Of a stretch of 64,000 nt of DNA, positions 1,738 through 51,617 are shown piece after piece (the first letter of the stretch is position 1; each line of letters starts with the position of its first letter). Source of the DNA: Geomonas silvestris (lineage in GTDB: Bacteria > Desulfobacterota > Desulfuromonadia > Geobacterales > Geobacteraceae); NCBI RefSeq assembly GCF_014193515.1, contig NZ_BLXX01000005.1:62001-126000 (forward strand), read 5' to 3'. The notes beneath the pieces are model-generated. The model searched no databases and was not told the origin of the DNA. It saw only the letters and a list, made by a program, of their open reading frames with translations. Made by a program: the position numbers and the translations under genes.

Positions 1738-1792
1738 CGTTCATTCTGAAAACGTCATCTGCACTGCACCATATTCAACCGGAGGTTCACCA

Positions 1793-35125: not shown

Positions 35126-35215
35126 GGTGTTCTCCTTGTAATACCTGAATGCTCGTCATCGACGCCCGGTGGTGTCAGCTGGACGCTGCCGCTCGTCCGG
35201 TGCCCGGTCGGTGGG

Positions 35216-36082
35216 TTACTGCTTCTCGATAACCTCGAGCCCGTTCCAGAGGTTCTTTCTGATCCCTTTCCCGGTGTCGATGGAGAACAGTGGAGCGGTG
35301 AGGATGCGCCCCTGTACCGCGCGTCCCGAGACGGTGGTGATGTCGTAGAGGCGCCAGTCCGATTGGTTCGCCGTCTGGCCGACCGGCAGGGGAGGGCGCG
35401 CACCCGGGTGTACGACGGCGGGCTGGATGCGTAGCAGGTCACGGATAGGCAGTTCCACCTCCTCGCCCCCCGCAGTCAGCACCATGATGGCGTCGTCGGG
35501 GCGGTACAGGTTGAGCCCTACCACGGTGCCGATGATGCTCTCACCCTCGACGCTGGAGCGGACACGGCTCCCTATGGTGAGGCCGGGAGCGGAGGAAACC
35601 TGGCCCGCCTCGATGGAAGCGATCACGCGCAAAAGGAAGCTCTGCCGTCTGCCGCCTGCCTCCACCTCGAAGCTCGGCCCGTTCAACAGGACCCCTTCGA
35701 TGCTCTGCCCCTGGAGCATCTCGAAGCGCAGGATGTTGCTGGTCAGGTGCCGGGGGATGTCCGCCTGCGCGGGGGTGACGAGCATGGTCTCCCCGGTGGG
35801 CAGAATGCGCCGCACGTCCCTGAGTCGCACCAGGCGGTTGCCCGATTTGGGCGTTATGACGGTCAGGGTGTCGGTGTCGGGTACGATCCGCGTCAGGGTC
35901 CCCTCCACGCGCTGGTTCTTCTTCTTGATGATGACCGGCTTGCCGATCTCGATGCCGTCGGCCCAGGACGGGACAGCCCACAGGCAGAGGGCGGTGCAGA
36001 GCAGTCGCGCGACGAGCCGGGCCGGGGCACGCCGGTTGCGGGGTGCGATTCCAACGGCGGGTAGGGCGGTATCGGCTGGCAT
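35216..36082 (-). CDS. exported protein of unknown function in the polysaccharide operon
   Basis: A 288-residue protein. After an Arg-rich n-region of about 25 residues a hydrophobic core ending in SWA suggests export. The mature part is nearly all beta strand, with repeated pairs such as GTLTRIVPDTDTLTVITPKSG, LVRLRDVRRILP, GVLLNGPSFEVEAGG and VELPIRDLLRIQPA, resembling small-barrel (SH3/Sm-like) repeats. No catalytic motif is visible. It stands between the Wza-like exporter gene and the Wzz-like gene and is probably cotranscribed, so it may be an accessory of the export complex. I do not recognise a family. Confidence 0.7.
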   Translation of the reverse strand: MPADTALPAVGIAPRNRRAPARLVARLLCTALCLWAVPSWADGIEIGKPVIIKKKNQRVEGTLTRIVPDTDTLTVITPKSGNRLVRLRDVRRILPTGETMLVTPAQADIPRHLTSNILRFEMLQGQSIEGVLLNGPSFEVEAGGRRQSFLLRVIASIEAGQVSSAPGLTIGSRVRSSVEGESIIGTVVGLNLYRPDDAIMVLTAGGEEVELPIRDLLRIQPAVVHPGARPPLPVGQTANQSDWRLYDITTVSGRAVQGRILTAPLFSIDTGKGIRKNLWNGLEVIEKQ

Positions 36083-36127
36083 GGCGGGTCCTCCTTCGGG
36101 TGCTCCGGTTGACTGAAGCGTGCTGTC

Positions 36128-38269
36128 CTAGAATATGGTCACCAGGACCCCCGCGGAGACGGCGATCTGGAACAGGATCTGGGTGATGTCCTTCAGGTTG
36201 CGCATCCAGGCCACGCGCTCGATCTTCTCGGGGACCACCACCGTATCCCCGGAGCCCAGGCGGGCCCCCGAGCTGAAGAAGCCGCCGCCTGCCTTGAGCG
36301 CGGTGCCGTTGGCCTGCAGGATGAACGTGTTGCCCGGGTCGGCGTTGGGCGTCGCGCCGCCGGCCAGTTCGACGTAATAGCCGCTGTCCCGGTCCTTTTC
36401 GTAGACGAAGGCGCTCTGGTTGTAGACCGAGCCGATCACCTGCACGGTTTTGGGGTCCGACGGGATGGTGATGGTGTCGCCCTGCTCCAGTTCGATGTCG
36501 TAGGCGGAGCCGCGCAAACTGGAAAGCTCCGTGATATTGAGGGCGATGCGTCCCTTGGCCCGGACGGTTTTCAGCTGCTCGATGAACTGCCGCTTCTGCT
36601 CCAGTTCCAGCTGCACCAGCTTGGCTTCCTCGGCGTTCGCCGAGGTGGCCACCTGTGCGGTCCCGGAACCGCTCAACTCCCGCTGCAGCCGTTCCACCAT
36701 CTCGTTGATCTGGCGCTGCTGCTGCTCCTGCACCCTTTCCCGGGAAAACTGGGCGCCGCGCAGGTAGGCCCGGCCGGTAAACCCGCCGGCCCGCTCGATC
36801 AGCGAGGAGAGCGTCTCCCCCTTTTTGAAGGTGTAGGTGCCGGGGAAGAGCACCTCGCCGTTGAGCGTTATGGTCCGGTACAGGCTCCATTCCGGGACGG
36901 TGCGCACCTGCAGGTAATCGTTCAGGCGCAGCGCCACGTTGTGCTTGGGGTCACCCGCCTGGGCCTTGACCAGGTCGACCTGGAAGCGCTCGGTCTGCGG
37001 GCCGGCCTGGGACGCCGTCACCCGGGTCACCTCGGCCTGGTCGAAGGTGTTGTAAAGCAGTCCCCCCGCCCGTGCGATGAGCTCCTTGACCGTGGTCACG
37101 CCGGAGTTAACCCCGTACTCGCCGGGGCGGGCCACCGCGCCGGCGATGGTGACGGTATTGGCCGTGTCGGTTACGGTGAAGATCTGGGCCAGGTCTCCGT
37201 CCTGCAGCAGGAAGTTCTTTGCCGGGTTCTGTTCGATGTCGCGCAGGTCGCCTTCGAACAGAACCCGGAAACTGTGCTCCTCGACCCGCTGCATCTGCAG
37301 CCGCCCGGTGAAGGCGATGCCCGTGATGCCGCCTGCCATCCTGATCAGGTCGAGCAGCCTGGTCTCCCCCTTCAGCTCGTAGATGGCGGGAGTCCTGACG
37401 GTCCCCGCGATGCCGACCAGGGGGCCCACCGGCGGGATGAAGATCACGTCCTCGGGCATGAGCCGGATATCCCGGGACTTGTCCCCCTTGAGCAGGAAGT
37501 CGTAGAGATCGAAGGTGGCCACGGTGCGGCCGTTTCTCTTGACCTGGATGTCGCGCATCGACCCGGTCTTGGAGGGTCCGCCCCCCTCGAACAGGGCGTT
37601 GATGATGCTGGAGAGCGAGGAGACGGTGTAGGCCCCCGGCCTGCGCGCGTTGCCCACCAGATAGACCTGGATGCTGCGCAAGGCACCCATGCTCACGTTC
37701 ATTTCGAAGCCGGAGTAGTATTTGGCGAAGCGGTTGTGCAACAGTTCCTTCAGTTCCCGAAAGCTCAATCCGGTCACCCCGAAGACTCCGGTCTTGGGGA
37801 GGCTTATGGTGCCGTCGTTACTGACGACCACGCTCCAATTCCCTTCGACACGGCCCCAGACCTCGATCCTGATCTCGTCTCCGGGGCCGACCACGTAATC
37901 CGGGCCCACCGGCACCTGGGTGACCGGGGCGAAGGTGGAGGGGGGCCTCTGGAAGAGGTCGTAGCCGAACTGGCCGATTTCGAGGGCTGCGGGTCCCTTG
38001 CCGGTGGCGTATTTTTCGAACGCGGAGCGCTCCGCGGGCTCGCGAGACGCTTCGGTTGGGGGCAGCGAGGCGATTGGTCCGGGGCTCGGGCTGGCAGCCT
38101 TCGATTCCGGCTTGCCGGACTGGGCGGGGGCGCTGCCCGCCGCTCCGGCTGAGGCGCCCGGCGCCTGCCCTGTGCTGGCGCAGGCAGTAAGCGGGATGAG
38201 GAGCATCGCCAGGAGCAGAGTGGCGACAGTCACCAGGGAAGGGTGTCTTTTCACGACGGGTTGCAGCAT
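36128..38269 (-). CDS. Wza-like polysaccharide export protein with SLBB domains
   Basis: A 713-residue outer-membrane lipoprotein. The signal peptide ends in the lipobox LTAC, followed by a Ser/Pro/Ala-rich linker. VGPDYVVGPGDEIRIEVWGR near residue 125 is the Poly_export domain, and then several SLBB repeats follow: VYLVGNARRPGAYTVSSLSS, VGIAGTVRTPAIYELKGETR, VTIAGAVARPGEYGVNSGVT, TLNGEVLFPGTYTFKKGET and VQVIGSVYNQSAFVY. A hydrophobic C-terminus could form the outer-membrane helix. It would form the export channel for the polysaccharide. It is the first gene of the operon; a perfect inverted repeat lies in its leader. Confidence 0.9.
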   Translation of the reverse strand: MLQPVVKRHPSLVTVATLLLAMLLIPLTACASTGQAPGASAGAAGSAPAQSGKPESKAASPSPGPIASLPPTEASREPAERSAFEKYATGKGPAALEIGQFGYDLFQRPPSTFAPVTQVPVGPDYVVGPGDEIRIEVWGRVEGNWSVVVSNDGTISLPKTGVFGVTGLSFRELKELLHNRFAKYYSGFEMNVSMGALRSIQVYLVGNARRPGAYTVSSLSSIINALFEGGGPSKTGSMRDIQVKRNGRTVATFDLYDFLLKGDKSRDIRLMPEDVIFIPPVGPLVGIAGTVRTPAIYELKGETRLLDLIRMAGGITGIAFTGRLQMQRVEEHSFRVLFEGDLRDIEQNPAKNFLLQDGDLAQIFTVTDTANTVTIAGAVARPGEYGVNSGVTTVKELIARAGGLLYNTFDQAEVTRVTASQAGPQTERFQVDLVKAQAGDPKHNVALRLNDYLQVRTVPEWSLYRTITLNGEVLFPGTYTFKKGETLSSLIERAGGFTGRAYLRGAQFSRERVQEQQQRQINEMVERLQRELSGSGTAQVATSANAEEAKLVQLELEQKRQFIEQLKTVRAKGRIALNITELSSLRGSAYDIELEQGDTITIPSDPKTVQVIGSVYNQSAFVYEKDRDSGYYVELAGGATPNADPGNTFILQANGTALKAGGGFFSSGARLGSGDTVVVPEKIERVAWMRNLKDITQILFQIAVSAGVLVTIF

Positions 38270-38639
38270 AGAGATCGTCCCGATGGAGGAATGGCTGAGT
38301 GCATTGGCCCTGCATCCCTATGTGCAGGTATGATTCACATAGGGATGCGGCGGATTGTAAGAGAGAATTCCGTTAACGATTTTGTGTCGTGGGGGGGCCC
38401 GTTATGCTGAAGAAGTATAGCTGGACCTAATCCTTTCTAGAATCGGCGCGTGTCCGATATTGGAATAAGCGGTTTTTATTCAGAGATGAGAGTTCGTCCT
38501 ATGGATTATCTGCGCGAGGTCGTTGCGGAGGGAATAGAATCCGGCGGGTTAACGGTGAGCCGGGAGGTAGGGAGCCTGCCTCCACGGTTGCCGTACTTGG
38601 CGCCCGGCCGCCATGTTCCAAGCAGAACTTGGAGGGATC
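38270..38639. other. regulatory gap upstream of the polysaccharide operon
   Basis: About 370 bases without a supported gene. It carries the inverted repeat at 38312-38348. The stretch around 38355-38480 is more AT-rich and probably holds the operon promoter reading leftward, but I cannot assign convincing -35/-10 boxes. A short rightward frame from 38450 has no ribosome-binding site or homology. Confidence 0.5.
38312..38348 (-). promoter_or_regulatory. perfect 13-bp inverted repeat in the wza-like leader
   Basis: GCATCCCTATGTG (38312-38324) and CACATAGGGATGC (38336-38348) are exact inverted copies separated by 11 bases, 43 bases upstream of the start of the first polysaccharide gene. No T-run follows on the minus strand. 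It could be an operator or a leader RNA hairpin. Confidence 0.65.
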
Positions 38640-38666
38640 GGCACCGGGTACAGGGTACCCGGTGCC
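38640..38666 (-). terminator. perfect 12-bp hairpin after the FKBP gene
   Basis: GGCACCGGGTAC and GTACCCGGTGCC form a 12-bp stem with a three-base loop, 17 bases beyond the FKBP stop codon on the minus strand. There is no U-tract, so termination would be weak or the hairpin may protect the 3' end. Confidence 0.55.
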
Positions 38667-38683
38667 CCGATTTCTTGAGCCGA

Positions 38684-39364
38684 TTAGTCTAGAGGTTTGT
38701 TTTTCTTGACCTCAAGCAGCTCCACCTCGAAGGCCAGCGGGGTACCCGGCAGGATCACATTGGTCACCCCGGCCTCCCCGTAGGCGAGCGTCGCCGGGCA
38801 GACCAGCCTGGCCTTGCCGCCCGCCTTCATCTTCTGCAGCCCCTCTTTCCAGCAGGGGATCATGCCGTCCAGGCGGAACTCCGCCGGGGTGCCGCGCTGG
38901 TATGAGCTGTCGAACTCCTCCCCGGTCGGGAAGGTACCGCGGTACTGCACCTTTACCATATCGGCGGGGCCCGGCGTGGCACCGCTCCCCTCGGCCCGTG
39001 CCAGGTAGATCAGCCCAGAGTCGGTTTTCAGGGCGCCCTTTTCCCGGGCGGCCTTTTCGAGGAACTCCCGGTTCAGCGGTTCCTGCCGTTCGACCTGGGC
39101 CTTGACCCGGGCCCGGGCCAATTGCTGCATCCTTTCGCCGTAGGCGGACATTTCCACCCGGGGCTTGCTCCCCGTGACCCCGTCGCTCATCCCCTGTTTG
39201 ACGATCTCGAGTTCGGCCGGGGTGAGGTTGAATGCGGTGAGCTGACGGGATACCACGAGGCCCACGGCATAGAGGGTGTTTTCGTCATCGTTTTTTGGGC
39301 CCTCCTGGGCCAAGGCGGGAGTGGCGAAAAGGACAATCAGTGCGGCAAGCGCAAATCTGTTCAT
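38684..39364 (-). CDS. exported FKBP-type peptidyl-prolyl isomerase
   Basis: A 226-residue periplasmic folding factor. A signal peptide (ALAALIVLFATPALA) precedes an FkpA/Mip-type N-terminal helical dimerisation domain (about 25-120). The FKBP domain follows, with VKVQYRGTFPTGEEFDSSY, AEFRLDGMIPCWKEGLQKMKAGGKARLVCP and YGEAG then LPGTPLAFEVELLEV. The active-site Tyr, Phe and Asp positions are present. It lies immediately after the multicopper oxidase gene and may assist folding of these large secreted proteins, which is inference. Confidence 0.92.
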   Translation of the reverse strand: MNRFALAALIVLFATPALAQEGPKNDDENTLYAVGLVVSRQLTAFNLTPAELEIVKQGMSDGVTGSKPRVEMSAYGERMQQLARARVKAQVERQEPLNREFLEKAAREKGALKTDSGLIYLARAEGSGATPGPADMVKVQYRGTFPTGEEFDSSYQRGTPAEFRLDGMIPCWKEGLQKMKAGGKARLVCPATLAYGEAGVTNVILPGTPLAFEVELLEVKKNKPLD

Positions 39365-39458
39365 GGATTAGGTTCCTTTTGGGCTAAGGGGGGGGGGAAG
39401 AGAAGGTGCGTCCCCTACGAGCGGCGTACCTTCTTGAATTACCGCAGTTCTTCAAGGA

Positions 39459-42400
39459 TTACCATTTGCCGACGACTGGCTTGTCCCCGGGGATGCCGAA
39501 GGCGAAGATCGCGTCGGTGAGGGGAGTCCAGGCCCCGTTGCCGGTCAGATTCAGATACCACTGGCCGTTTCTGAAGACGCCGAGCTTGGTTTTGCCGCTG
39601 GCGTTCCAGTCTCCGGTAACCGGAATGTCGCCCGGAATGCCGAAGTTGTAGATGACATCCGTGGCGGGCGTCCAGCTGCCGTTGCCGGTCAGGTTCAGGT
39701 ACCATTGCCCGTTTCTGAAGACACCGATCTTGGTTTTCCCGGTTCCGTTCCAGTCGCCGGTCACCGGGATGTCCCCGGCAATGCCGAAGTCGTAGATGAC
39801 GTCCGTTGCCGCATTCCAGATGCCGTTACCGTCCAGGTCCAGATACCATTGATGGTTTCTGAAGACGCCGATCTTGGTGGCCCCGTTGCCGGTCCAGTCC
39901 CCGACCACCGGGACGTCTCCCGCGATGCCAAAGAAGAAGGTTTCGCCCGGATCGAGCGTGTTGTTGCCGTTTAAGTCCAGCCACCAGGTTCCGTTGCCTT
40001 TGTAGGCGCCTGCTTTGGAGGTGCCGTCCCCGGTCCAGTCGCCGCTGATCGGGGTGTCCCCGGCGGCGCCGAAGGTTAGGATCTGGTCGTTGGGAAGATT
40101 AAAGGCATGGTTGCCGTCGCTATCGAGATACCACTGCCCGGCGCCGCGGAACACGCCGAGACGGTCGTTGGGCTTAAGGATAAGCGGCCGCATCAGGTCG
40201 AATTCCTCGTGCCCCAGGATATGGCAGTGCCAGACGTACTCCCAGCCGAAGTTGGTCTGCGGGTTCATGGCCGACACCGGTATGGTGACGTCCAGGGGGC
40301 GCATGCTGTCGGGAATGGTGAAGGGGAGGATGGGTGCGGTCGGCCGCATGGCGACGACGATGTCCTCCATCGGGTTCATGCGTACCGTCTCCTTCCATCC
40401 CATCTCGCTCGGGTCGGGCGCGCTGATGGAGCCGTCCCAGGCGACGCGGTTCACCACCTGGACGTCGGTCAGGTGGAAGTGGATGGGATGGGAATCGATT
40501 CCGTTGTGGGTGACCTTCCAGAGCTGGACCTGACCGTTGCCGATGGTCTCGGTTGCGGGGGCGATGTAGGGAAGCGGCACCGCGGGGGTGAGCCCGTTGG
40601 GCGCCTCGGTGCCCAGCATGGCGCTGATCCGGCCGTAGGTGGGGTCAAAGCCCTCGTTGATCGATTTCCCCTTGAAGGGGACCGACGCGCCGGCAACGGT
40701 CAGTGCGGTGTCGGTCAGCTTCGCGTAGGTGGCCGCCGGCACGATGTGGGCCGGTTGGCCTGCCGTGTAGGCGGTTGCCAGCTTGGCCGGCAGGGTAGTG
40801 AGGTTCACCGTGGTGACCGGCGCCGTGGCGGGGGTCGCAGTTACCCGGAACTGCATGATGGTCCGGGTGTTGGGGCCGAAACCGGCCAGGGTGGTCGGCG
40901 ACCCGCCGCTTAGGGTCTGGTCCGGGTTGCCCGTGTAGTAGTCGTAGCGCGGGTCGCCGCCGGGCAGTGCCGCCGGGGCGTCGTTGTAGAGGATGACGGT
41001 GGAACCCGGGGCCAGGGTCGAGAAGTCGATGAGCACGTCGGCCCGCTCGGCCGGCATCATGAGCAGCGTCTTGTTGGCGACACGCCCCGCCGGGTCGAAG
41101 GTGATCGGCTGGTTGGCAAGCACGACCGGCGCGGGCAATAGACCGCTCTCGGTTCCGATCTGGACCATCTGCGGCCCGGCGTAGAGCGGATCCGGTACTC
41201 CGCCATCCCGGCCGTCGGTGGGCCAGGTTGCCGGGAAGCAGCCAACCGGTGTGGCCGGAGGCACTGCGGCCGGATCACAGGTGCAGTTGGTGGTGACCAG
41301 CGCGCTGCAGAGCTGGCGCGGGATGGCCGGGACCATCTTCACCTCGGTGCAGCTCCCCGCGGCAGTGGCGGCGCCGGCGCAGACGGTGCCGGCTGCCGTT
41401 GACCCATAGTAGAGCTGCAGGTTGAAGGAGCGGTCGTTGGCCGCGTTCAGCAAACGGAACCGGTAGGCCTTGGGCTCGACGGTGACGAAGGGGTAGGCGG
41501 TGCCGTTTACCACCGGCGTGTCCATGAATGCCTCGGGGACCGTGGAGAGCGCAGGAAGAGTGGGGCTGGTGGCGGGTGAGGGGGGCCAGACCAACGGGCC
41601 GTAATCCCAGCGCCCGGTCGGCACCAGGCCGCCTGCAGCCGACTGGTTGGGTTCATAGACGTGCGGGAACCAGAGGTCTCCCGGCGCTCCCCAGGAGGCG
41701 GTGTTCCACAGGGCGTCCTGGACCGCTACGTCGGAGGGGACGAAGGTTTTGTCCTGGATCACCAGCGGGATCCCGTACTTGTATTCGCAGAGTACCGAAG
41801 GGGTGGTCTGGCTGCCGGCGCAGATGTTGGGGATGTCCCGTGCGGCGATCAGGGCCTCCTCCTGCGGGTCGGTGATCAGGTAGCCCGCCGCCTCGCCGGC
41901 ATAGACGTTGAGACGGGTGATGCCGTAACTGTGGTCGTGATAGAACATCATCCTGCCGCTTTGCTGGTTGGTGTAGAAGTAGGTTCCCAGGCCGTCGCCG
42001 GGAGCGGGAGCGGGGATCGACTTGCCCGCGCCGATCATGTCGGGCACGTTCTGGAAGGCGAGCCCCTTCTTGTAGCTGGTCGGGTCGGCCGCCGGGGTGA
42101 TCCACTGGTGTGGCGTGCCGTCGCTGATCCAGGGGGTGTGGCCGCCGTGCAGATGGAGGTCGGCACGGTTTTGCGGATAGAGCTCCGTGGTTCCCAGGCC
42201 GCCGGTGCCGGCTCCCATGACCGTGGTATCCACCGGGAGGAACAGGTTGCCCAGGGCACCCGTACCCAGGAGGTTTTCAAACAGGATGCGCACCGGCTTG
42301 TCTTTGGTGGCGAGGATCAGGGGCCCGAGGTAATGCGGGCTCTGCAGCTTGAGGTCCGTGGCGTTGACCTGGTTGTAACCCCTGAGCCTGGTCGCCTTTG

Positions 42401-42758
42401 CTAGGTCCGTGTGCATCTTCTGGGTGTAGTCCTTGACGCCGATCACGTAGTAGTCCGACCCGGGATAGGTCAGGGTGTCCGGCTGGGCGATCGGTATGTA
42501 GGCGCCCAGGGCATTTTCGTTACAGGTACCGGTTCCTGCCGGGGCGCTTACCGTGCACCCCGGGAGTCCCGCTCCGGGGAGCTTGTCGACGAACTTCCTG
42601 AGGGCCGTGCCGGTGTTGTGGACCACCGCGCCGACCGTATAGCTCCCCTGTGGGCTGTTGGCGTAGTAGGTGCCGCCGCCCGGCCCCGCGTGGGCTGAGT
42701 TGCCGACGGCCAGTGCCAATAAAAGCTGTGACGTGGTAATGAGTCGTGCCTTGTGCAT
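39459..42758 (-). CDS. exported multicopper oxidase with five C-terminal repeats (copy 1)
   Basis: A 1099-residue protein. The ATG at 42758 gives a signal peptide ending in AHA. All four copper motifs are present: HLHGGHTPWISDG (near residue 200), MFYHDHSYGITRLNVYAGE, SHPIHFHLTDVQVV and the type 1/3 motif WHCHILGHEEFDLM with the axial methionine. The oxidase part ends near residue 860. Five units of about 47 residues then follow, of the form TKIGVFRNGQWYLxLxGNGxW...FGIPGDxPVTGDW, resembling FG-GAP/VCBS-like repeats. Overall it resembles MofA/OmpB-type extracellular oxidases linked to Mn or Fe chemistry; the substrate is unproven. A paralogue lies just upstream. Confidence 0.9.
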   Translation of the reverse strand: MHKARLITTSQLLLALAVGNSAHAGPGGGTYYANSPQGSYTVGAVVHNTGTALRKFVDKLPGAGLPGCTVSAPAGTGTCNENALGAYIPIAQPDTLTYPGSDYYVIGVKDYTQKMHTDLAKATRLRGYNQVNATDLKLQSPHYLGPLILATKDKPVRILFENLLGTGALGNLFLPVDTTVMGAGTGGLGTTELYPQNRADLHLHGGHTPWISDGTPHQWITPAADPTSYKKGLAFQNVPDMIGAGKSIPAPAPGDGLGTYFYTNQQSGRMMFYHDHSYGITRLNVYAGEAAGYLITDPQEEALIAARDIPNICAGSQTTPSVLCEYKYGIPLVIQDKTFVPSDVAVQDALWNTASWGAPGDLWFPHVYEPNQSAAGGLVPTGRWDYGPLVWPPSPATSPTLPALSTVPEAFMDTPVVNGTAYPFVTVEPKAYRFRLLNAANDRSFNLQLYYGSTAAGTVCAGAATAAGSCTEVKMVPAIPRQLCSALVTTNCTCDPAAVPPATPVGCFPATWPTDGRDGGVPDPLYAGPQMVQIGTESGLLPAPVVLANQPITFDPAGRVANKTLLMMPAERADVLIDFSTLAPGSTVILYNDAPAALPGGDPRYDYYTGNPDQTLSGGSPTTLAGFGPNTRTIMQFRVTATPATAPVTTVNLTTLPAKLATAYTAGQPAHIVPAATYAKLTDTALTVAGASVPFKGKSINEGFDPTYGRISAMLGTEAPNGLTPAVPLPYIAPATETIGNGQVQLWKVTHNGIDSHPIHFHLTDVQVVNRVAWDGSISAPDPSEMGWKETVRMNPMEDIVVAMRPTAPILPFTIPDSMRPLDVTIPVSAMNPQTNFGWEYVWHCHILGHEEFDLMRPLILKPNDRLGVFRGAGQWYLDSDGNHAFNLPNDQILTFGAAGDTPISGDWTGDGTSKAGAYKGNGTWWLDLNGNNTLDPGETFFFGIAGDVPVVGDWTGNGATKIGVFRNHQWYLDLDGNGIWNAATDVIYDFGIAGDIPVTGDWNGTGKTKIGVFRNGQWYLNLTGNGSWTPATDVIYNFGIPGDIPVTGDWNASGKTKLGVFRNGQWYLNLTGNGAWTPLTDAIFAFGIPGDKPVVGKW

Positions 42759-42831
42759 GGTTTCCTCCTGAGGGGGGTAATGTGCAGTTCTTTTCCCTAG
42801 TGATAGGGGCCGGTGCCGTCGCACACCGGCT

Positions 42832-43224
42832 TCACTGCTGGCTGTCAATGATCGTCTGACGCTTGATTTCCTTCATCCGCTCCACCCTTTGCTTGTCGCG
42901 GGTACGCTGGGATATCGCCGGTTTCGCTGCAGCCGGATCCAACGGTGCAGGTACCTCCGCCTGCTCGGTCCCGGGCGAACCGGTAGCCTGGGGGCCGGTG
43001 GCGGGTGGGACTGCGGGAGCCGGTGCTGGCGCCCCGGCCGGCTGTGGCTCGGGGGCCGGGTTCGAGGAACGCTGCTGCTCGGGGAGCGGTTGGACCGCTG
43101 CACCCTTGCTGTCGCCGTCACAGGTCGCCAGGTAATGGTCCGGAAACTCCTTGACCCGGCAATCGGTGCCGGCAAACAGCAGTTGGGGCAGCAGGACCAT
43201 TCCGGCCGTAAGAAAAGTTTTCAT
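42832..43224 (-). CDS. small exported Pro/Ala-rich protein preceding oxidase copy 1
   Basis: A 130-residue protein with a signal peptide (TAGMVLLPQLLFAG). Two cysteines lie in TDCRVKEFPDHYLATCDGDS just after cleavage and could form a disulfide. A Pro/Ala/Gln-rich linker (about residues 48-100) and a basic, helical tail (RTRDKQRVERMKEIKRQT) follow. No family is recognised. It lies between the two oxidase genes and is probably cotranscribed. A smaller exported protein of similar layout precedes copy 2, suggesting a conserved helper or accessory role. Confidence 0.65.
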   Translation of the reverse strand: MKTFLTAGMVLLPQLLFAGTDCRVKEFPDHYLATCDGDSKGAAVQPLPEQQRSSNPAPEPQPAGAPAPAPAVPPATGPQATGSPGTEQAEVPAPLDPAAAKPAISQRTRDKQRVERMKEIKRQTIIDSQQ

Positions 43225-43289
43225 CGGCTACTCCGGATAAGCACTGGGCGCTGTCTTGCAACAACGCCCAGTTGTTCAAGCTGCAATTG

Positions 43290-46200
43290 CTACCACTTGC
43301 CTACCACCGGTTTGTCGCCGGGAATGCCGAACGTTTTGATGGTATCGATGCCGGCGTCCCAGGCCGCATTGCCGTTCAGGTCCAGGAACCATTGCCCGTT
43401 TCGGTACACCCCGATCTTGGTCTTGCCGTCGCCGTTCCAGTCTCCGGTGATCGGGACGTCGCCCGGGATGCCGAAGAAACTGAACTGGTCGGTTCCTGCA
43501 TCCCAGGCACTGTTGCCGTTCATATCCAGGTAGACCTGGCCGTTTCTGAACACGCCGACCTTGGTCTTGCCGCTGGCGTTCCAGTCGCCGGTAATCGGGA
43601 CGTCCCCGGCGATGCCGAACTGGGAAATCTGGTCGATGCCGGCATCCCAGGTGCTGTTGCCGTTCATGTCCAGGTACCAGGTGCCGTTTCTGAACACGCC
43701 GATCTTGGTGGCACCGTTGCCGGTCCAGTCGCCCACCACCGGCACGTCGCCGGCGATGCCGAAGCTGAAGGTTTCCCCGGCATCGAGCTTGCCGTTGCCA
43801 TTTTTGTCCAGCCACCAGACGCCGTTGCCCTTGTAGGCGCCTGCCTTGGCGTAGCCGGTGCCGTTCCAGTCGCCGGTTATCGGGATGTCGCCGGCGGCTC
43901 CGAAGACGGAGACCTTGTCCTGGGCATCCCAGGCGCCGGAGCCGTTGGCGTCGAGGTACCACTCGCCGGCGCCCCGGAACACGCCGATGCGGTCGTTAAG
44001 TTTCAGGACGAAGGGGCGCATCATGTCGTCTTCCTCGTGGCCCAAGATGTGGCAGTGCCAGGTGTACTCCTGGCCGAAGTTGGCCACGGTGTTGACCACG
44101 GTGGTGGGCACACCGGTCAGCGGGTCGAGGCTGGCGAAGCTCGTACCCACCAGGGTGGACGGGCTCAGCGGGCGGATGCTGTCCGGTACCTGGAAGGGGA
44201 AGGTGGGTACCTTGGCCCGCATGGCGACGATGATGTCCTCCAGCGGGTTCATGCGGACCGTGTCCTTCCACCCCAGCTCGTTGGGGTCGGTGGGCCGGAT
44301 GGCGCCGTCCCAGCCCACGCGGTTCACCACCTGCACGTTCACCAGGTGGAAGTGGATGCCGTGGGTGTCCACGCCGTTGTGGGTGATCTTCCAGAGCTGG
44401 GGCTGGCCGCGCGAGATGGTCTCGGTGGTCGGGTCGATGAAGCCCAAGGGTACCGTGGTCTGGATCAGGGCGCCGGTGAAGGGGAGCTCGATCCCCAGGG
44501 TGGAGTTCATGCGCCCCTGCGGGTCGAAGAGCTCCTGGATCGCCTTGTTCCCCATCGCCATGGTGATGGGTGCGGTGGAACCGTAGGGGGTGAAGGTGAG
44601 CGAGAGGTCCTGGATGCGCGCCAGGGTGTCCGTGGTCGCGCCGCCGGTATAGCCGATCGTGTTGTAGGCCGATTCCGGAACTACCGGCGCGTCCTGCGAA
44701 GCCTTGAAGATGGTCGGCAGGGCAGTCGTGAGCGAGGTCAAGAGGGTCGGGTTGTAGTCGTCGGTCGGGGCGGTCGAGCTGGGGCCGGCCGCCACGCGGA
44801 ACTGCATGATGGTACGGGTGTTGGGGCCGTAGCCCGGTGGGGTCGGGGAGGCACCACCCTGATTGTTGGCGCCTGCGGTGGCCGAGTAGTCGGGGTTGCC
44901 GGTGTAGAAGTCGTAGCGCGGGTCGCCGGCCGGGACCGGCGCGGGTGAATCGTTGTAGAGGATGATGGTCTTGCCGGCAAAGTTGGAGAAGTCGATGACG
45001 ACGTCAGCCCGCTCGGCCGGAGCCATGAAGAGGGTCTTCTCCAGCACGTTCAGGACTACGATGTTCCTCTTGTTCTGTTCGAAGCCGACCGGCGTGTTGA
45101 GGTGGACCACCGGTCCCGGCAGGATACCGCCCTCGGTGCCGATCTGGATCATGGCGGGCCCGCGCAGCGTGGGATCGGGCACCCCGGAAAGCCTGCCGTC
45201 CAATACGTCGGGAATCATCCCCGGTGTCTGGGACAGCCATAAGGGAGGGAAGGGGATCGCCGCGTTCTGCAGTGCAGGGACCATCCTCACCTCGGTGCTC
45301 CCCCCGATGCTGACGCTTGGGGGGGTGACATAGCCGGAACCTCCGCTGGTCACGGTAACGCTGGCCACGTTGCCAAGGCCGTTCACCGTCGCGGTCGCCC
45401 AGGCGCCGGTGCCGCCGCCCCCCACCAGGTGGACCATGGGAGAGGAGTTGGGCGGGTAGCCGGTCCCCTGGTTGCCCAGTGCGATGGCGGTGACCATGCC
45501 CCCAACCACCGTCGCCGTTGCCGTTGCGGGGGTCGTGTAGCCCGCGTCGGCCACGTAGAGCTGCAGGTTGAGCATCCGGTCGTTGGTGGCGTTCAAGATC
45601 TTCATCCGGTAGGGCGCCGGTGCCACCTCAAGGTAGGGGTAGGGCTGGCCGTTCACCACCGGGGTGTCCATGAAGGCCTCAGGCACGTGCGAGACCGCCG
45701 GCGGGTAAGGGGTGGCCGTCGGGAATACCGGCCAGAACCACGCTCCGTAGTCCCATCTGCCCAAGGGGTTCGCGCCGGTGAGGCTCGACGGGTCCTGGTT
45801 CGGCATGTATACGTGGGGGAACCAGAGGTTGCCTCCCCCGCCCCAGTTGGCGGTATTCCAGAGCGGGTCGGTCACCTGGGTGAAACGGGTGGGGTCCTTG
45901 GCAACGCCCACGGGGGTCACGGAGTTGTCGTAGACGAAAGTCTTGTCCTGGATGACGAGCGGAATGAGGTGCGGCAGGTCGGTCGGGACGCCGGCCGTGG
46001 TGAGGGCTGCCTCCTCGGCCGGGTCGGCCAGCAGGTAACCCGCCGCCTCGCCGCCGTAGACGTTGAGGCCGGTCAGCCCCAAGGCATGGTCGTGGTAGAA
46101 CATGAGCCGGCCGCTTTGCTGGTTGGGCCAGTAGAAGGTCGCGGAACCCGCGGCCGGCAGCGGCATGTCGGGTACGTTCTGCTGGCTGACCCCCTTGACA

Positions 46201-46928
46201 AACGGGGTGGTCTCCCCGGCGGGGGTGATCCACTGGTGCGCCGTGCCGTCGCTGATCCAGGGGGGCAGGCCGCCGTGCAGGTGGATGGTGGCGCGGTTCT
46301 CGGTGTAACTGGCGCAGGTGGCGCCGACCGCTTCAGGGTTGCAGGGTGCACCGCCTGCGGTCAGGGGCCCCATCCCGGCGCCCATGATGCTGGTGTCGAC
46401 CGGCAGGAAGAGGTTCCCCGCCGCCCCGACAGGAAGCCGGTTGGTGAACTTGATCCGCACCGGCTTGTTCTTGGTGGCGATGATGAGCGGCCCCAGGTAG
46501 TGCGGGGTGCCGACGGCAACGCCGTTTACCTCCTGGATATAGCCTCTGAGCTTGGTGCCGCCAGTCTGGTTGGGCCAGGTTCCGACCACGGGCGGCAGGT
46601 CCCGGTGCAGCTGCTCGCGGTATTCCACCAGCGCGATCTCGTAGTAATCGTCGCCCGGGAAGCCGGGCAGGGTGCCGGGCGTCGCGATCGGGATGTACTG
46701 CCCGAGGGTGTTGGGACCCAGGGCCGTGCCGGCCGTGCGCGCCGCGGCGCCCAGGCCGGGTAGTGAATCGATAAACTTCCTCAGGGGCGGGCTGTAGGCG
46801 AAGTTGGGCTTGGTGTAGTCGACCCCCGGGGTCAGTGTCGGGGCCGCGCGTCCCACCTCGACCCCCCAGGGTGAGACAGCCATTGCCAAAGCCAGGCCGG
46901 CGATCAGGTTCCACCTAGTTCTGTTCAT
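43290..46928 (-). CDS. exported multicopper oxidase with five C-terminal repeats (copy 2)
   Basis: A 1212-residue paralogue of the next oxidase. The signal peptide runs to about residue 28. Copper motifs are HLHGGLPPWISDG, MFYHDHALGLTGLNVYGGE, THGIHFHLVNVQVV and WHCHILGHEEDDMM. It differs from copy 1 by an insert (about residues 455-545) made of two Gly-rich units (GNQGTGYPPNSSPMVHLVGG and TSGGSGYVTPPSVSIGG). The C-terminal 235 residues are five repeats like those of copy 1, and both proteins end in FGIPGDKPVVGKW. It is likely a secreted or surface-bound metal or phenol oxidase of the MofA/OmpB type. AAGGAGGAAAC precedes the ATG. Confidence 0.9.
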   Translation of the reverse strand: MNRTRWNLIAGLALAMAVSPWGVEVGRAAPTLTPGVDYTKPNFAYSPPLRKFIDSLPGLGAAARTAGTALGPNTLGQYIPIATPGTLPGFPGDDYYEIALVEYREQLHRDLPPVVGTWPNQTGGTKLRGYIQEVNGVAVGTPHYLGPLIIATKNKPVRIKFTNRLPVGAAGNLFLPVDTSIMGAGMGPLTAGGAPCNPEAVGATCASYTENRATIHLHGGLPPWISDGTAHQWITPAGETTPFVKGVSQQNVPDMPLPAAGSATFYWPNQQSGRLMFYHDHALGLTGLNVYGGEAAGYLLADPAEEAALTTAGVPTDLPHLIPLVIQDKTFVYDNSVTPVGVAKDPTRFTQVTDPLWNTANWGGGGNLWFPHVYMPNQDPSSLTGANPLGRWDYGAWFWPVFPTATPYPPAVSHVPEAFMDTPVVNGQPYPYLEVAPAPYRMKILNATNDRMLNLQLYVADAGYTTPATATATVVGGMVTAIALGNQGTGYPPNSSPMVHLVGGGGTGAWATATVNGLGNVASVTVTSGGSGYVTPPSVSIGGSTEVRMVPALQNAAIPFPPLWLSQTPGMIPDVLDGRLSGVPDPTLRGPAMIQIGTEGGILPGPVVHLNTPVGFEQNKRNIVVLNVLEKTLFMAPAERADVVIDFSNFAGKTIILYNDSPAPVPAGDPRYDFYTGNPDYSATAGANNQGGASPTPPGYGPNTRTIMQFRVAAGPSSTAPTDDYNPTLLTSLTTALPTIFKASQDAPVVPESAYNTIGYTGGATTDTLARIQDLSLTFTPYGSTAPITMAMGNKAIQELFDPQGRMNSTLGIELPFTGALIQTTVPLGFIDPTTETISRGQPQLWKITHNGVDTHGIHFHLVNVQVVNRVGWDGAIRPTDPNELGWKDTVRMNPLEDIIVAMRAKVPTFPFQVPDSIRPLSPSTLVGTSFASLDPLTGVPTTVVNTVANFGQEYTWHCHILGHEEDDMMRPFVLKLNDRIGVFRGAGEWYLDANGSGAWDAQDKVSVFGAAGDIPITGDWNGTGYAKAGAYKGNGVWWLDKNGNGKLDAGETFSFGIAGDVPVVGDWTGNGATKIGVFRNGTWYLDMNGNSTWDAGIDQISQFGIAGDVPITGDWNASGKTKVGVFRNGQVYLDMNGNSAWDAGTDQFSFFGIPGDVPITGDWNGDGKTKIGVYRNGQWFLDLNGNAAWDAGIDTIKTFGIPGDKPVVGKW

Positions 46929-47015
46929 GTTTCCTCCTTAGTTGCAGAGCTACTGCTCGGCATAAGGCCTTTAAAAATCCCCGGGTGGGTTATCCGTCCG
47001 TGGGGGCCGTTGCCG

Positions 47016-47285
47016 CTACTTCTTGATGCTGCCGTCCGGATTGGCCTTCTCGATGAGGTCGCGCCGGGTCTTGCCGGCCTCGTCCACCTTGACCCTGACC
47101 TGGTTGCGCCTGGAGAGCTGCCTTGCGCCTCCGGACGCGGCCTGGCCGCTGTTCCTCACCTCGGGCGTTTCTTTCGTGCCGGCAGTTCCCGGTGCCGCGG
47201 GGGGAGCAGTCTCTTGTGTGCCGGCCACAGCGGCCAGCAAAAGCGTGAGCGAAATCCAGATTGCAAAACCGACCCAACGTGCCAT
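47016..47285 (-). CDS. small exported protein preceding oxidase copy 2
   Basis: An 89-residue protein with an N-terminal signal sequence (GFAIWISLTLLLAAVAG), a Pro/Ala/Thr-rich stretch and a basic C-terminal half (SRRNQVRVKVDEAGKTRRDLIEKANPDG). AAGGAGGC lies before the ATG. No family is recognised. It reads into the oxidase gene after 87 bases. Its layout (signal, Pro/Ala linker, basic tail) resembles the 130-residue protein before copy 1, though direct sequence similarity is weak. Confidence 0.6.
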   Translation of the reverse strand: MARWVGFAIWISLTLLLAAVAGTQETAPPAAPGTAGTKETPEVRNSGQAASGGARQLSRRNQVRVKVDEAGKTRRDLIEKANPDGSIKK

Positions 47286-47320
47286 GTTAAGCCTCCTTTA
47301 TCCGTTGCTGCTGAACCTGC

Positions 47321-47395
47321 CCTTGCCGGCGCTGCCTGCCGGTAGGTAATGGGGGGAGCCCGCCCCGTTTCCTGCCGGCAGGCAGCGCCGGAAGG
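47321..47395 (-). terminator. long hairpin between the WecA-like gene and the oxidase block
   Basis: CCTTGCCGGCGCTGCCTGCC plus GGTAGG (47321-47346) pairs with CCTGCCGGCAGGCAGCGCCG plus GAAGG (47371-47395), a stem of more than 20 bp with two mismatches. Read leftward it separates the WecA-like gene from the small exported protein gene. It may terminate, attenuate or stabilise the transcript. There is no clear U-tract. Confidence 0.55.
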
Positions 47396-47453
47396 AAACG
47401 TAACCATGCTCCCGGGCAGCCTGCCAAAAATACTATGCCGTCCGGTACCGGGG

Positions 47454-48575
47454 TTACATCCGTTCCTCGGCCCCGAGTGGCGACCCGGCGAGCTTCATAT
47501 CGGAGAGCGCTGCCGCATCCGCTTCCAGCAGGCCGGCGGCGGGTGTCCTGGGGTGGCTTGCCGCGGGCTCCCCTGCCCCCTGGGACAGGCTCCAGGCGAA
47601 AAGGCCCAGCACCGACGAGGCGTACAGCACGACCATGAGGTACGCTGTGGAGCTCTTGCTGGTGAGGTAGAGTGCCACTGCGCCGAGTAGGGTTGTGACC
47701 ATCCAGAAAAGCAGGGTCGCTCTGACCGGTGAGATCCGATTGAGCACCATGAGGTAGTGCAGGTGGAGGTTGTCCGCCTTGAAGGGGTTTTTACCCTGCG
47801 ACAGCCGCACCGACAGCACCCGGACGGTGTCAAAGATGGGGGTGAGTAGCAACAGTACCGGGAACAGCGGGTCTACCCGGGCTCTGGGGCCCTGGGTCAG
47901 CATGATCGCGGTGACCGCAAGCGAGAAACCGAGGAAGAGGCTTCCGGTGTCCCCCATGAAAATCTTGGCATGGGGAAAGTTGTAGAGCAAAAACGCACCC
48001 AGGGCTCCGACGAAGGAGAAGCAGACTGCCGCCAGGGGGAGGTTGCCGGAAGCCAGGGCGGCAAGGCCCATGAACAGGAACGCCAGGAGCGACACGCCGC
48101 CGGCCAGGCCGTTGAGCCCGTCCAGAAGGTTGATGGCGTTGACGATGCCGATAATGCTCAGGTAGGTGAAGGGGATGGCGAACCAGCCAAGCTCCACCTG
48201 CCCCAGGGCACCGTACAGTCCGAGCCGCAGCACGCAGACCTGGCCGCCGAAGATGACCACCGTTGCCGCCAAAAACATCACTGAGAACTTGGACTTCCAG
48301 CCCAGCGGCCGCAGGTCGTCCACCATTCCCAGCCCGACCAGCAGGGCCGAGCCGACCAGGTACCAGGCCAGCGTCCTGCCCCCGTTTTGCTGCAGCACCA
48401 TCGGGAGCACGCCGGCAAAGAACGCCAGGCCGCCCCCGCGTGGCGTAACCTTGCTGTGCAGGCGACGCTCGCCGGGGCTGTCAACGCAGCCGAAGAGCGT
48501 CGCCAGATAGATGACGATCGGCGTGAGGACTGCGGTGAGCATGAAGGAGGCGAGGCATGGGGCAAACAAAGTCAT
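47454..48575 (-). CDS. WecA/MraY-family undecaprenyl-phosphate sugar-1-phosphate transferase
   Basis: A 373-residue protein with about ten membrane segments. MVDDLRPLGWKSKF is the DDxxD-like motif, INLLDGLNGLAGG the asparagine/aspartate motif, MGDTGSLFLGF the conserved metal-binding motif, and DNLHLHYLMV the histidine box. Such enzymes start lipid-linked saccharides by placing HexNAc-1-phosphate on undecaprenyl phosphate. It is the only initiating transferase in the island and may therefore prime the Wzx/Wzy polysaccharide, although it lies 9 kb from that operon. The frame opens upstream at 48647, but the ATG at 48575 fits the family start. Confidence 0.88.
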   Translation of the reverse strand: MTLFAPCLASFMLTAVLTPIVIYLATLFGCVDSPGERRLHSKVTPRGGGLAFFAGVLPMVLQQNGGRTLAWYLVGSALLVGLGMVDDLRPLGWKSKFSVMFLAATVVIFGGQVCVLRLGLYGALGQVELGWFAIPFTYLSIIGIVNAINLLDGLNGLAGGVSLLAFLFMGLAALASGNLPLAAVCFSFVGALGAFLLYNFPHAKIFMGDTGSLFLGFSLAVTAIMLTQGPRARVDPLFPVLLLLTPIFDTVRVLSVRLSQGKNPFKADNLHLHYLMVLNRISPVRATLLFWMVTTLLGAVALYLTSKSSTAYLMVVLYASSVLGLFAWSLSQGAGEPAASHPRTPAAGLLEADAAALSDMKLAGSPLGAEERM

Positions 48576-48943
48576 AAAAATATCCTCATAAAAGCCTGGC
48601 AATTTATCAATGTAGACCAAAGCCTGGGCTGGGGGAGGTGCACTCAATAGGCTAACGGCATGCCGTGTAAAGACTATACGCTACGTGGCCTTGACAGATA
48701 TTGGGAGGCTATCCGAATTGCACATAGGCGTTTGAGCCATAACTGGATAGGTGTTTGAGTATTAGAAGCGCAGTTTCGGAGTAGGCGGGTTGGAAGGGGG
48801 GATGTTTTCGGTGACGCGCGCAGGTGCCCCGGCTCTGGGAGTCGGGCGCGGCAGCCTGGCCGTCGTCCGGCTGTCTCGGGAGGGCTGCGGTTCCTTGGGG
48901 TACCGTGTCACAACCGCCAGACAAGCGGGATCAGTGAAAAGGA
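48576..48943. other. gap between the WecA-like gene and the transposase remnant
   Basis: About 370 bases with no supported gene. The part near 48700-48770 is AT-richer and probably contains the promoter of the WecA-like gene. The remainder (48780-48940) is GC-rich and may be residual insertion-sequence DNA. Confidence 0.4.
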
Positions 48944-49267
48944 TCAGTGCAAAAGGGTGAACCGGGAGCCCGCCCTGCACCAGGGGAGTTCCACGCGTGT
49001 GGTTCCACAGCGGCAGGCCAGGTGCGGCACCCGGGCGTGCAGGTAGGTGGTGTAGCGGAAGAAATCTGCTTTATACCAGGTTTCGCAACCGTTGTCGGGG
49101 TAACAGATGGTCCCCCGCGAGCCGCAGTTCGGGCAGATAAGGGAGAGTCCTTCGACAATTTCCACGTTGAGGTCCAGGCGGCAGGAATCCTTGGTAAACC
49201 CCACTTTGGTAATCCGCCAGGGGCCGGAAATACCGAGGGCTCCGGACAATACCTCAGTCGCATTCAT
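48944..49267 (-). pseudogene. N-terminal fragment of an ISL3-family transposase
   Basis: A 107-residue frame that matches only the N-terminal zinc-finger region of ISL3 transposases: MNATEVLSGALGISGPWRI, the cysteine pairs in LICPNCGSRG and LACRCGTTRVE, and KADFFRYTTYLHARVPH. Full proteins are around 400 residues and carry a DDE domain, absent here. The frame ends with a stop directly after the finger region. The ATG has GGAGG in front. I see no intact terminal inverted repeats. Confidence 0.65.
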
Positions 49268-49769
49268 CGTACCTCCTCCGTAGCATAAGGCCGCAGGCTT
49301 GCTGCCGTGACGTTGTAGTAGCACCGACAGATAAGATACTGGACTGCCTACCGTGCGAATTTTACTTTTGCCTTATCCAGTATTGAGCGTATCGTGAGTA
49401 TAACTATGTGGGGATGGTATCGGACATGGGAGGATGTCTGTTATTGGCATCAGTTGTTTGGCACTTGGCAGGTTGCATTCACGGTGACTCCTGGTGCAGG
49501 GGCGGGAAGCGTTTTTCAGAATATAGGATCAAAACGCAATGCCGTGCGGGTTCAACTCTTACCCGAATCAGGGGCCGGTCCTAGGTGAAAACAAGACAAC
49601 CACTCATGCCTGCTCGCAAAGCAACCTGTTACTATGTAGCGTCGAGAGAGTGGGCTCATTCCCTCCTCTGGCAATGAGGGACGGTTGACGGCGTCCAGGC
49701 GGGGCCGTCGAATCCTAAAAACGACGGCGGTACAGTTGGGACAGCGCTAGTAGCACAGGGAGGCTCGGC
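49268..49769. other. gap before the NarL-type regulator
   Basis: About 500 bases without a supported gene. ATACTGGA (49338-49345) recurs inverted as TCCAGTAT (49376-49383), possibly an insertion-sequence end. A short rightward frame at 49394-49588 has no ribosome-binding site or recognisable domain. The last 100 bases before 49770 should contain the regulator promoter. Confidence 0.4.
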
Positions 49770-50402
49770 ATGACCACCAGGATTCTTGTAGCCGACGACC
49801 ATGAAATTTTCCGGGAAGGGCTCAAGCGGATTGTAGAGACGTCGGTGGACATGACCGTTGTCGATGAGGCGTGTAACAGTCAGGAATTGCTCGGCAAGGT
49901 GCAGCAAAACGACTATGATATCGTGATTCTTGACATCACCATGCCCGGAAGAAACGGGCTCGATGCTCTGGTCGAGATCAAACTCATCAAGCCGAAGTTG
50001 CCGGTACTGGTACTGAGTGCCCATCCCGAGGAGCAGTACGCGCTTCGCTCCTACAAATCTGGTGCATCCGGCTACATGACCAAGGGGACCCCTTCCGCGG
50101 AGTTGCTCGACGCCCTGCACAAGATTTCGCTGGGGAAAAAGTACGTCAGCAGTGCGCTGGCCGAATCTCTGGTAAACGGGCTCAGCGAACCGAGCGCGCA
50201 GGGGCTGTTAAACAGCCTTTCAAACCGTGAGTACCAGGTGATGAGCCTGATCGCCTCCGGTAAGACGGTGGGCAAAATCGCCGTTGAGCTCTGTTTGAGC
50301 GTCAAGACCGTGAGCACCTATCGGGCCCACATACTCAAGAAGCTCAATCTAAAGAATAACGCGGAGCTGACGCGGTTTGTCATAGAAAAGGACTTTTTAT
50401 AA
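49770..50402 (+). CDS. NarL/FixJ-family response regulator
   Basis: A 210-residue two-domain regulator. The receiver domain carries VADDHEIFREGLKRI, phosphoacceptor Asp55 in DIVILDITMPGRNG and the switch lysine in MTKGTPSAEL. The C-terminal LuxR-type helix-turn-helix is LSNREYQVMSLIASGKTVGK then VELCLSVKTVSTYRAHILKKL. GGGAGG precedes the ATG. No histidine kinase gene is adjacent. The unlinked kinases at 20500-22987 in the same island lack an output regulator, so a link is possible but unproven. Confidence 0.93.
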   Translation: MTTRILVADDHEIFREGLKRIVETSVDMTVVDEACNSQELLGKVQQNDYDIVILDITMPGRNGLDALVEIKLIKPKLPVLVLSAHPEEQYALRSYKSGASGYMTKGTPSAELLDALHKISLGKKYVSSALAESLVNGLSEPSAQGLLNSLSNREYQVMSLIASGKTVGKIAVELCLSVKTVSTYRAHILKKLNLKNNAELTRFVIEKDFL

Positions 50403-50744
50403 GGCTTGCTGCAGAAATGGGAGTGCTTCAAGTCTTGGTCCAGTTTGTCACTACCTCCTGGCTATCAAAGAAGCAGGCGGCGGCGATTGCTTCAGGCGTT
50501 TGCATCGGGGAACTACCGCAACGCCCCCTGCTCGACGTCGAGAAGGGGGCCTAGCTGCCTTTTTTTGCCCCGCACGTCCTCACGTTATGCTTACCACTCG
50601 CGATCCTGAGTGGCGATAGTTCGTCTTGCACAATTTCGTACGTTATTCGCGTTGCGTGTCTTTTGTGCCACCTTCAATGGTTCAGACCGTTCAATACTGC
50701 GAGCGATTTGCTGGGGGCGAGAGTGGCGAAACGGTGGGCAACGG
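50403..50744. other. gap after the NarL-type regulator
   Basis: About 340 bases. CGCCCCCTGCTCGACGTCGA then GAAGGGGGC near 50520-50548 could form a hairpin. No gene is supported, and the rightward short frames here lack ribosome-binding sites and homology. Confidence 0.35.
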
Positions 50745-50825
50745 TCACTTTTCCCTTTTATAGAGCAAGGCTATCAAAACGACACAGAGCCAGCAGATCA
50801 ACGTTAAACCTACGACTATCTTCAT
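50745..50825 (-). CDS. possible 26-residue single-helix membrane peptide
   Basis: ATG at 50825, preceded by GGTGAG six bases upstream, opens a 26-codon frame that translates to a Lys start, an uninterrupted hydrophobic stretch of about 18 residues (VGLTLICWLCVVLIALLY) and a KREK end. That is a classic small membrane peptide. It lies 28 bases downstream of the azoreductase stop on the same strand and could be the last gene of the efflux operon. Expression is unproven. Confidence 0.4.
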   Translation of the reverse strand: MKIVVGLTLICWLCVVLIALLYKREK

Positions 50826-50853
50826 AGGGAACTCACCGTAAATCCCAAATTCT

Positions 50854-51486: not shown

Positions 51487-51617
51487 GATCATCTCCTTCT
51501 TCGTTTTTCTGCTGTTTCAGCGTTCGTCTTGCGCCTTCCTGCCTGTTGGACGTCTGAGGCATACGTGTTCCTATAGGTGCACTATCCACTGCATGCTCGA
51601 TGCATATCTGTTCTGTG

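Follow-up and report, generated by a model that had tools for sequence, protein, structure and literature searches.

A candidate export or maturation module for MofA/OmpB-type multicopper oxidases with dedicated small partner proteins in Geomonas silvestris

The presence of a gene for a small exported protein directly ahead of each of two very large secreted oxidases raises the question of what the small proteins do for the enzymes that follow them. The locus in question lies in a 64,000-nucleotide stretch of the Geomonas silvestris genome, referred to here as the window, and consists of four leftward genes whose order and lengths, as claimed in a preliminary description of the sequence, are confirmed by the coordinates of their open reading frames (ORFs): a small protein (type A), a multicopper oxidase (MCO1), a second small protein (type B) and a second multicopper oxidase (MCO2). 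The preferred reading, to which a probability of about one half is assigned, is that the locus is an export or maturation module for multicopper oxidases (MCOs) of the MofA/OmpB type, with dedicated partner proteins. Judging from sequence comparisons, the small partners are probably dedicated helpers, escorts or subunits of the oxidases which have been largely overlooked so far. A wider proposition, advanced only tentatively, is that extracellular oxidases of the MofA/OmpB type as a rule depend on a small exported partner of their own, encoded directly upstream or fused at the N-terminus, or in some lineages on a lone FKBP_N or Cys-hairpin protein, which would be an undescribed obligatory small subunit or escort for a metal-related enzyme class that is widespread.

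Small exported genes ahead of the oxidases

The MCO genes surveyed were sampled from Geobacterales, from matches to type B, from named loci in other phyla and by further sampling; L numbers denote surveyed loci and G numbers surveyed genomes, L011 and G098 being the same record. An exported type A, type B, FKBP or FKBP_N-only gene lies just upstream of 70 of the 81 MofA/OmpB-type MCO genes (among the 81, type A in 46, type B in 24, and FKBP or a lone FKBP_N in others), and two of the 11 MCO genes without such a helper, those of L061 and L151, have a small exported ORF which fails the charge threshold only. A strict small-ORF test, with criteria of signal peptide, size, ribosome-binding site and distance, gives 51 of 85 MCO genes compared to 3 of 333 other genes in the same loci (Fisher p=9e-39, uncorrected for relatedness). 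The window's type A protein fits the position class of exported ORFs of 70-110 residues that lie directly upstream of an MCO and end in a basic helix. Type A genes frequently overlap the MCO start by 4 bp, which implies coupled translation, and in Methylococcales, which were sampled afterwards, all seven MCOs of one clade have an ORF of 92-111 residues that overlaps the MCO start by the same 4 bp. In other lineages the type A slot is occupied by an FKBP or a lone FKBP_N chaperone domain; stand-alone FKBP_N domains of 102-144 residues, with no catalytic domain, stand just before the MCO in L140, L144, L145, L147, L148, L074, L075 and L175. The operon in L160/L161 runs B-MofC-FKBP-SCO1-MofC-A-MCO, with families assigned by Pfam on homologues.

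The small exported ORFs are real, conserved genes. OmpB-type genes in the window's genus and in related genera have a type A ORF of 71-76 residues 12-50 bp upstream, and in the window's genus this ORF (71-73 residues) has a ratio of nonsynonymous to synonymous substitution rates (dN/dS) of 0.05-0.27 in close pairs, and its first, second and third codon positions vary at 14, 8 and 39 sites respectively, a pattern of purifying selection. When the small genes of the window are compared with those of L011, dS is saturated, and the dN/dS result thus covers the OmpB-associated ORF only. In L011 the corresponding position (5644-5973) holds a type A counterpart, and L059, L060 and L061 encode proteins like it. 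In Geobacter sulfurreducens the hypothetical gene GSU1395, numbered beside ompB and a candidate type A gene, falls with ompB in one mutant (PMC10599522).

Where a separate type A gene is missing, several MCOs have 60-129 extra residues between the signal peptide and the core. A position matrix built from ten stand-alone type A proteins, with the motif [VIL]TxxxRKxAAxxxK, reaches p<=0.001 in 7 of 11 of these N-terminal extensions (combined p=3e-15), as with VTPEQRKAAAERAAAAREE in L229 and VTPAEQKAAAQRAKDLGLQ in L241; in the 47 MCOs whose partner gene is separate, the N-termini score no better than -2.4 with the matrix. Four extensions had been spotted by eye before the matrix test, whereas those of L013, L021, L024, L229 and L245 had not. 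Methylococcales and a Geotalea-like genome (L209) also have the RKxAA motif in their stand-alone type A proteins. That MCOs of other phyla bear the type A motif in their own N-terminus is a sign of physical association, and the helper role proposed in the preliminary description is backed by this fusion, by the co-occurrence of the genes and by the purifying selection seen in the ORF that accompanies OmpB-type genes.

Both small proteins in the window have the common layout that had been noted for them, but the statement that they share little sequence is wrong for the C-terminal helix: about 21 C-terminal residues match (Table 1), the type A helix giving p=0.0005 in a left-out profile test and the type B helix being matched by the profile of type A tails with a shuffle p=0.0005. 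The profile of this lineage's type A tails also matches the type B protein of L011, and not the type B proteins of other lineages. The helix common to both small proteins is locus-specific, as would be expected if it recognizes something particular to these oxidases. The mature type A protein contains no Cys, His or Met, and mature type B contains two Cys and one His. After the signal peptide, the window's type B protein has the conserved segment C-x3-E-x-P-D-x5-C-x-G, in which C22, E26, P28, D29, C35 and G37 are invariant in 12 homologues. An AlphaFold2 model based on these 12 homologues has a signal helix, strands at residues 20-26 and 31-37, a disordered linker and a helix at 106-129; its mean predicted local distance difference test score (pLDDT) is 62.6, which is low overall, with 75-90 in the structured parts and about 88 in the C-terminal helix. 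C22 and C35 are predicted to lie opposite each other across the strands of a beta-hairpin (residues 20-37).

Searches of Pfam/NCBIfam returned no match above chance for the small proteins, with one weak stray match among the 12 type B homologues, and a PDB sequence search found no relative of type B. The best type B matches nearly all adjoin an MCO or MofC gene; the stronger notion that type B is exclusive to MCO loci was rejected, in that weaker relatives without cysteines occur elsewhere (L167-L169, L173, L177). In L165 (6872-8005) and L166 (6110-7252), the type B hairpin is fused to an extension of about 300 residues of an unfamiliar kind.

Active sites and C-terminal propellers of the oxidases

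The four copper motifs HxHG, HDH, HxxHxH and HCHxxxH are complete in MCO1 and MCO2 (10 His and the Cys), in agreement with the earlier statement that both oxidases keep all of their ligands. MCO1, which was searched directly, matches CotA-like laccases and bilirubin oxidases (CotA laccase, E=1.2e-34), and MCO2 is assigned to the same class through its homology to MCO1. In trees from whose sequence set Leptothrix MofA lay outside, both oxidases cluster with OmpB-like Geobacterales sequences, to which they are homologous along the whole core. By resemblance, the window oxidases appear to be of the MofA/OmpB type, the class of the Mn/Fe-metabolism type, and the likeness suggested in the preliminary description is backed by sequence as well as by the neighbouring FKBP gene, the counterpart of mofB. 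VTSGGSGY-like repeats abound in an insertion, absent from MCO2, at about residues 477-570 of MCO1; such repeats are also present in the N-termini of the L239 and L241 MCOs.

Both oxidases end in a repeat domain of five units of 43-48 residues, and the identity of the last 13 residues reported for the two is confirmed, both closing with FGIPGDKPVVGKW. A five-bladed propeller was anticipated from the number and length of the repeats prior to the structure search. The AlphaFold2 model of the MCO2 domain (pLDDT 95.7) has 20 strands which form five four-stranded blades, with units of about 47 residues, and the closest solved folds by Z score are a tachylectin-2-derived design (12.0) and tachylectin-2 itself (PDB 1tl2; 11.8), with about 205 residues aligned; several further fold matches are propeller lectins. 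Tachylectin-2 has 9% identity to the window domain, and the likeness rests on the predicted fold. With the repeat domain as query, Pfam gave sub-threshold matches only, including dockerin, GEVED and FG-GAP-like, and a PDB sequence search gave no match. The domain is accordingly described here as a predicted five-bladed propeller resembling tachylectin-2. Because polysaccharide genes adjoin the propeller oxidases, the natural inference is that the propeller would anchor the oxidase in the matrix, presumably by binding polysaccharide. In L062 the five-blade domain closes not only the MCO but also the subtilase beside it (1771-3882) and a second MCO-like protein.

Proposed mechanism and competing explanations

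Under the preferred reading, two secreted laccase-fold oxidases would each be made directly after an exported small partner, and each small protein would be exported together with its oxidase. The basic C-terminal helix of the small protein may dock on the oxidase polypeptide, as fusion and position suggest, and docking would keep the very large beta-rich oxidase soluble and foldable in the periplasm, if the small protein acts at the time expected of a chaperone. The MofB-like FKBP foldase would then act, copper would be loaded and the oxidase would leave the cell; the small protein may remain bound as a small subunit, and the propeller, if it binds as supposed, would hold the oxidase in exopolysaccharide made by the surrounding genes.

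A number of results weigh against this scheme. There is dependence among the surveyed loci, some of which were obtained through type B matches. Another MCO clade of Methylococcales mostly has no separate small gene, nor do most MCOs in other orders of the window's phylum, and in some MCO lineages the partner is missing in both forms, separate and fused; in the 36 genomes examined from the order of G365, such an MCO was found only in G365 itself, where it has no small partner. The absence of small genes beside homologous oxidases elsewhere, which the preliminary description had named as a point that would count against it, is not observed in Geobacterales and in Methylococcales and is observed in some MCO lineages. 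The window's type A protein lacks the fusion motif (score -2.9, p=0.45), as do its close relatives and the OmpB-associated proteins (p about 0.3), so that for the window the argument from fusion depends on shared position and layout. Profile comparisons join the type A subfamilies only by the signal peptide or a short motif, and the idea that all type A proteins form a single homologous family, which was considered, is not demonstrated. Likeness of fold to tachylectin-2 does not by itself prove sugar binding.

If the small proteins were instead stable subunits of the mature extracellular enzyme, with a role in catalysis or metal handling, then they would resemble MnxE/MnxF of Bacillus sp. PL-12, two accessory proteins of about 12 kDa which accompany the large MCO MnxG; MnxE contains a disulfide, and the expression of MnxG depends on MnxE/F (PMC5622069). 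Position before an MCO of about 1200 residues and a size of about 10-13 kDa are parallel in the two systems, the invariant Cys pair of type B lies on a predicted hairpin, and fusion at the MCO N-terminus suits a 1:1 subunit. The window oxidases, however, match three-domain CotA-like laccases, and the parallel is drawn from position and size; type B has no sequence relative in the PDB, and mature type A, given its composition, has none of the usual copper ligands. A subunit role is for these reasons considered rather unlikely, and MnxG with its two small accessory proteins can serve as the best analogy for partner function. Independent action outside the cell, on its surface or in the matrix (the basic helix might bind anionic polysaccharide or membrane), with the small proteins merely co-expressed with the oxidases, would suit the adjoining WecA-type and polysaccharide-export genes, the strongly basic tails and the Cys-less type B-like proteins away from MCOs, but it is improbable in view of the oxidases that bear the type A motif as a fusion, the frequent translational overlap and the MCO or MofC neighbours of the best type B matches. 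Delivery of copper to the oxidase, as by the caddie MelC1 for tyrosinase, is very improbable: each small gene precedes a copper enzyme, type B has its Cys pair and SCO1 genes are present in related operons, but SCO1 already provides a copper chaperone in those operons, a cross-strand Cys pair points to a disulfide rather than a metal site, and type A again lacks Cys, His and Met.

The remaining explanation, that the locus arose by simple tandem duplication of a module of small protein and oxidase, as the preliminary description suggested, concerns origin. The propeller domains of MCO1 and MCO2 are 69% identical and resemble each other more than they do the propellers of the nearest other loci, and the tails of the small proteins match. 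The catalytic cores, however, belong to different old lineages: in trees, the MCO1 core groups with L012 and L019 and the MCO2 core is placed elsewhere, and an approximately unbiased (AU) test rejects a clade of the window MCO1 and MCO2 with their L011 counterparts (p=1.6e-40; p=0.0025 with L012 included). The two cores are 56% identical, and MCO1 is nearer to L059 (64%) and L012 (71%) than to MCO2. The small proteins, in addition, are of different types. Module duplication was rejected on these grounds and retains hardly any credibility. The higher identity of the C-terminal domains compared to the cores suggests that only the propellers were exchanged or gene-converted between the neighbouring oxidases.

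Setting of the locus and its meaning

Table 1. Coordinates of the features of the locus and its neighbours, in window positions.
Feature	Position	Strand	Remarks
LuxR/NarL-type response regulator	49770..50402	+	inferred from sequence
WecA-type sugar-phosphate transferase	47454..48647	-	upstream of type A gene; Pfam Glycos_transf_4
Type A small exported protein, 89 aa	47016..47285	-	signal peptide, Pro/Ala/Gly linker, basic C-terminal helix
Type A C-terminal helix motif	47055..47117	-	LSRRNQVRVKVDEAGKTRRDL
MCO1, 1212 aa	43290..46928	-	laccase-fold (CotA-like) MofA/OmpB-type multicopper oxidase; Met at axial type-1 position
MCO1 five-unit repeat (propeller) domain	43290..43994	-	fold by homology to MCO2 domain
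Type B small exported protein, 130 aa	42832..43224	-	signal peptide, Cys-Cys beta-hairpin, disordered Pro/Ala linker, C-terminal helix
Type B predicted beta-hairpin	43114..43167	-	TDCRVKEFPDHYLATCDG
Type B C-terminal helix	42853..42915	-	ISQRTRDKQRVERMKEIKRQT
MCO2, 1099 aa from ATG	39459..42758	-	MofA/OmpB-type, other lineage than MCO1; Leu at axial type-1 position
MCO2 five-bladed beta-propeller domain	39459..40166	-	AlphaFold2 model and tachylectin-2 fold match
Exported FKBP peptidyl-prolyl isomerase, MofB-like	38684..39364	-	Pfam FKBP_C 1.1e-24, FKBP_N 1.1e-09
Putative polysaccharide export protein	36128..38269	-	downstream of FKBP; inferred from reading translation

The ORF of MCO2 as found mechanically opens at a TTG at 42848, and the ATG start is preceded by AGGAGG; the ribosome-binding sites are AAAGGAGG for the 89-residue ORF, CCGGAG for the 130-residue ORF and AGGAGGAAAC for both oxidases. 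The FKBP gene lies 95 bp downstream of MCO2. A search of the region for RNA families, promoters and terminators gave nothing useful. From their sequences, the genes around the locus appear to be polysaccharide genes, with the downstream export genes putative. The gene order WecA, small A, MCO1, small B, MCO2, FKBP is identical in L011, a Geobacteraceae metagenome-assembled genome. A search of 18 congeneric genomes found nothing close to the WecA and MCO genes of the locus (WecA at best 37%), yet the N-terminal part of MCO1 is 86% identical in L011 (G098), which is outside the genus; positions 38684-48647 were therefore probably acquired by horizontal transfer. Response regulators like that of the window, accompanied by kinases, flank L011, L059 and L060. 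In L060 (13230-15038) the small gene and the MCO are immediately preceded by a gene that joins a WecA-type transferase to an FKBP isomerase, an unusual membrane-tethered foldase; L059, L061, L062, L066 and L174 encode similar proteins. Genome G000 has at least six further MCO-type genes on contigs C1, C4, C8 and C12 (L025-L029), of which two are adjacent and have Tat-like signal peptides (L026) and another has an FKBP upstream (L025).

Among known systems, the mof operon, which comprises an MCO, an FKBP, a cytochrome c protein and sometimes SCO1 (PMC5566968), is similar in having a secreted MofA-type MCO and an exported FKBP (MofB). This applies to mofABC of Leptothrix discophora, with homologues in Rubrivivax A210 and Gallionellaceae, and relatives of the window also have MofC (cytochrome c with a periplasmic-binding domain) and SCO1. 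An exported protein with no assigned function has also been reported for MofA operons such as those of Leptothrix and Rubrivivax. The window differs in that MCOs of two lineages adjoin, each accompanied by a small protein of its own, and in its propeller C-terminus and its setting of polysaccharide genes; neither MofC nor SCO1 was identified in the window cluster, and no MofC was seen among the ORFs of 34000-52000, where not every ORF's family was run. OmpB of G. sulfurreducens (GSU1394) is likewise a large secreted MofA-like MCO, but OmpB-type proteins form a separate MCO clade and end in fibronectin-like sequence rather than a propeller.

Links of MofA, OmpB and related proteins to Mn oxidation and to the reduction of Fe(III) oxides go back decades, and the biochemistry of the class is still poorly verified (PMC5566968). 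The partner genes are more general than the preliminary description recognized, being present in many bacteria and fused to the oxidase in some. If a small partner is required, then an oxidase gene expressed alone would be expected to fail, as MnxG does without MnxE/F (PMC5622069), and co-expression of the small gene could open this enzyme class. The propeller beside polysaccharide genes, for its part, suggests how such enzymes may stay outside the cell.

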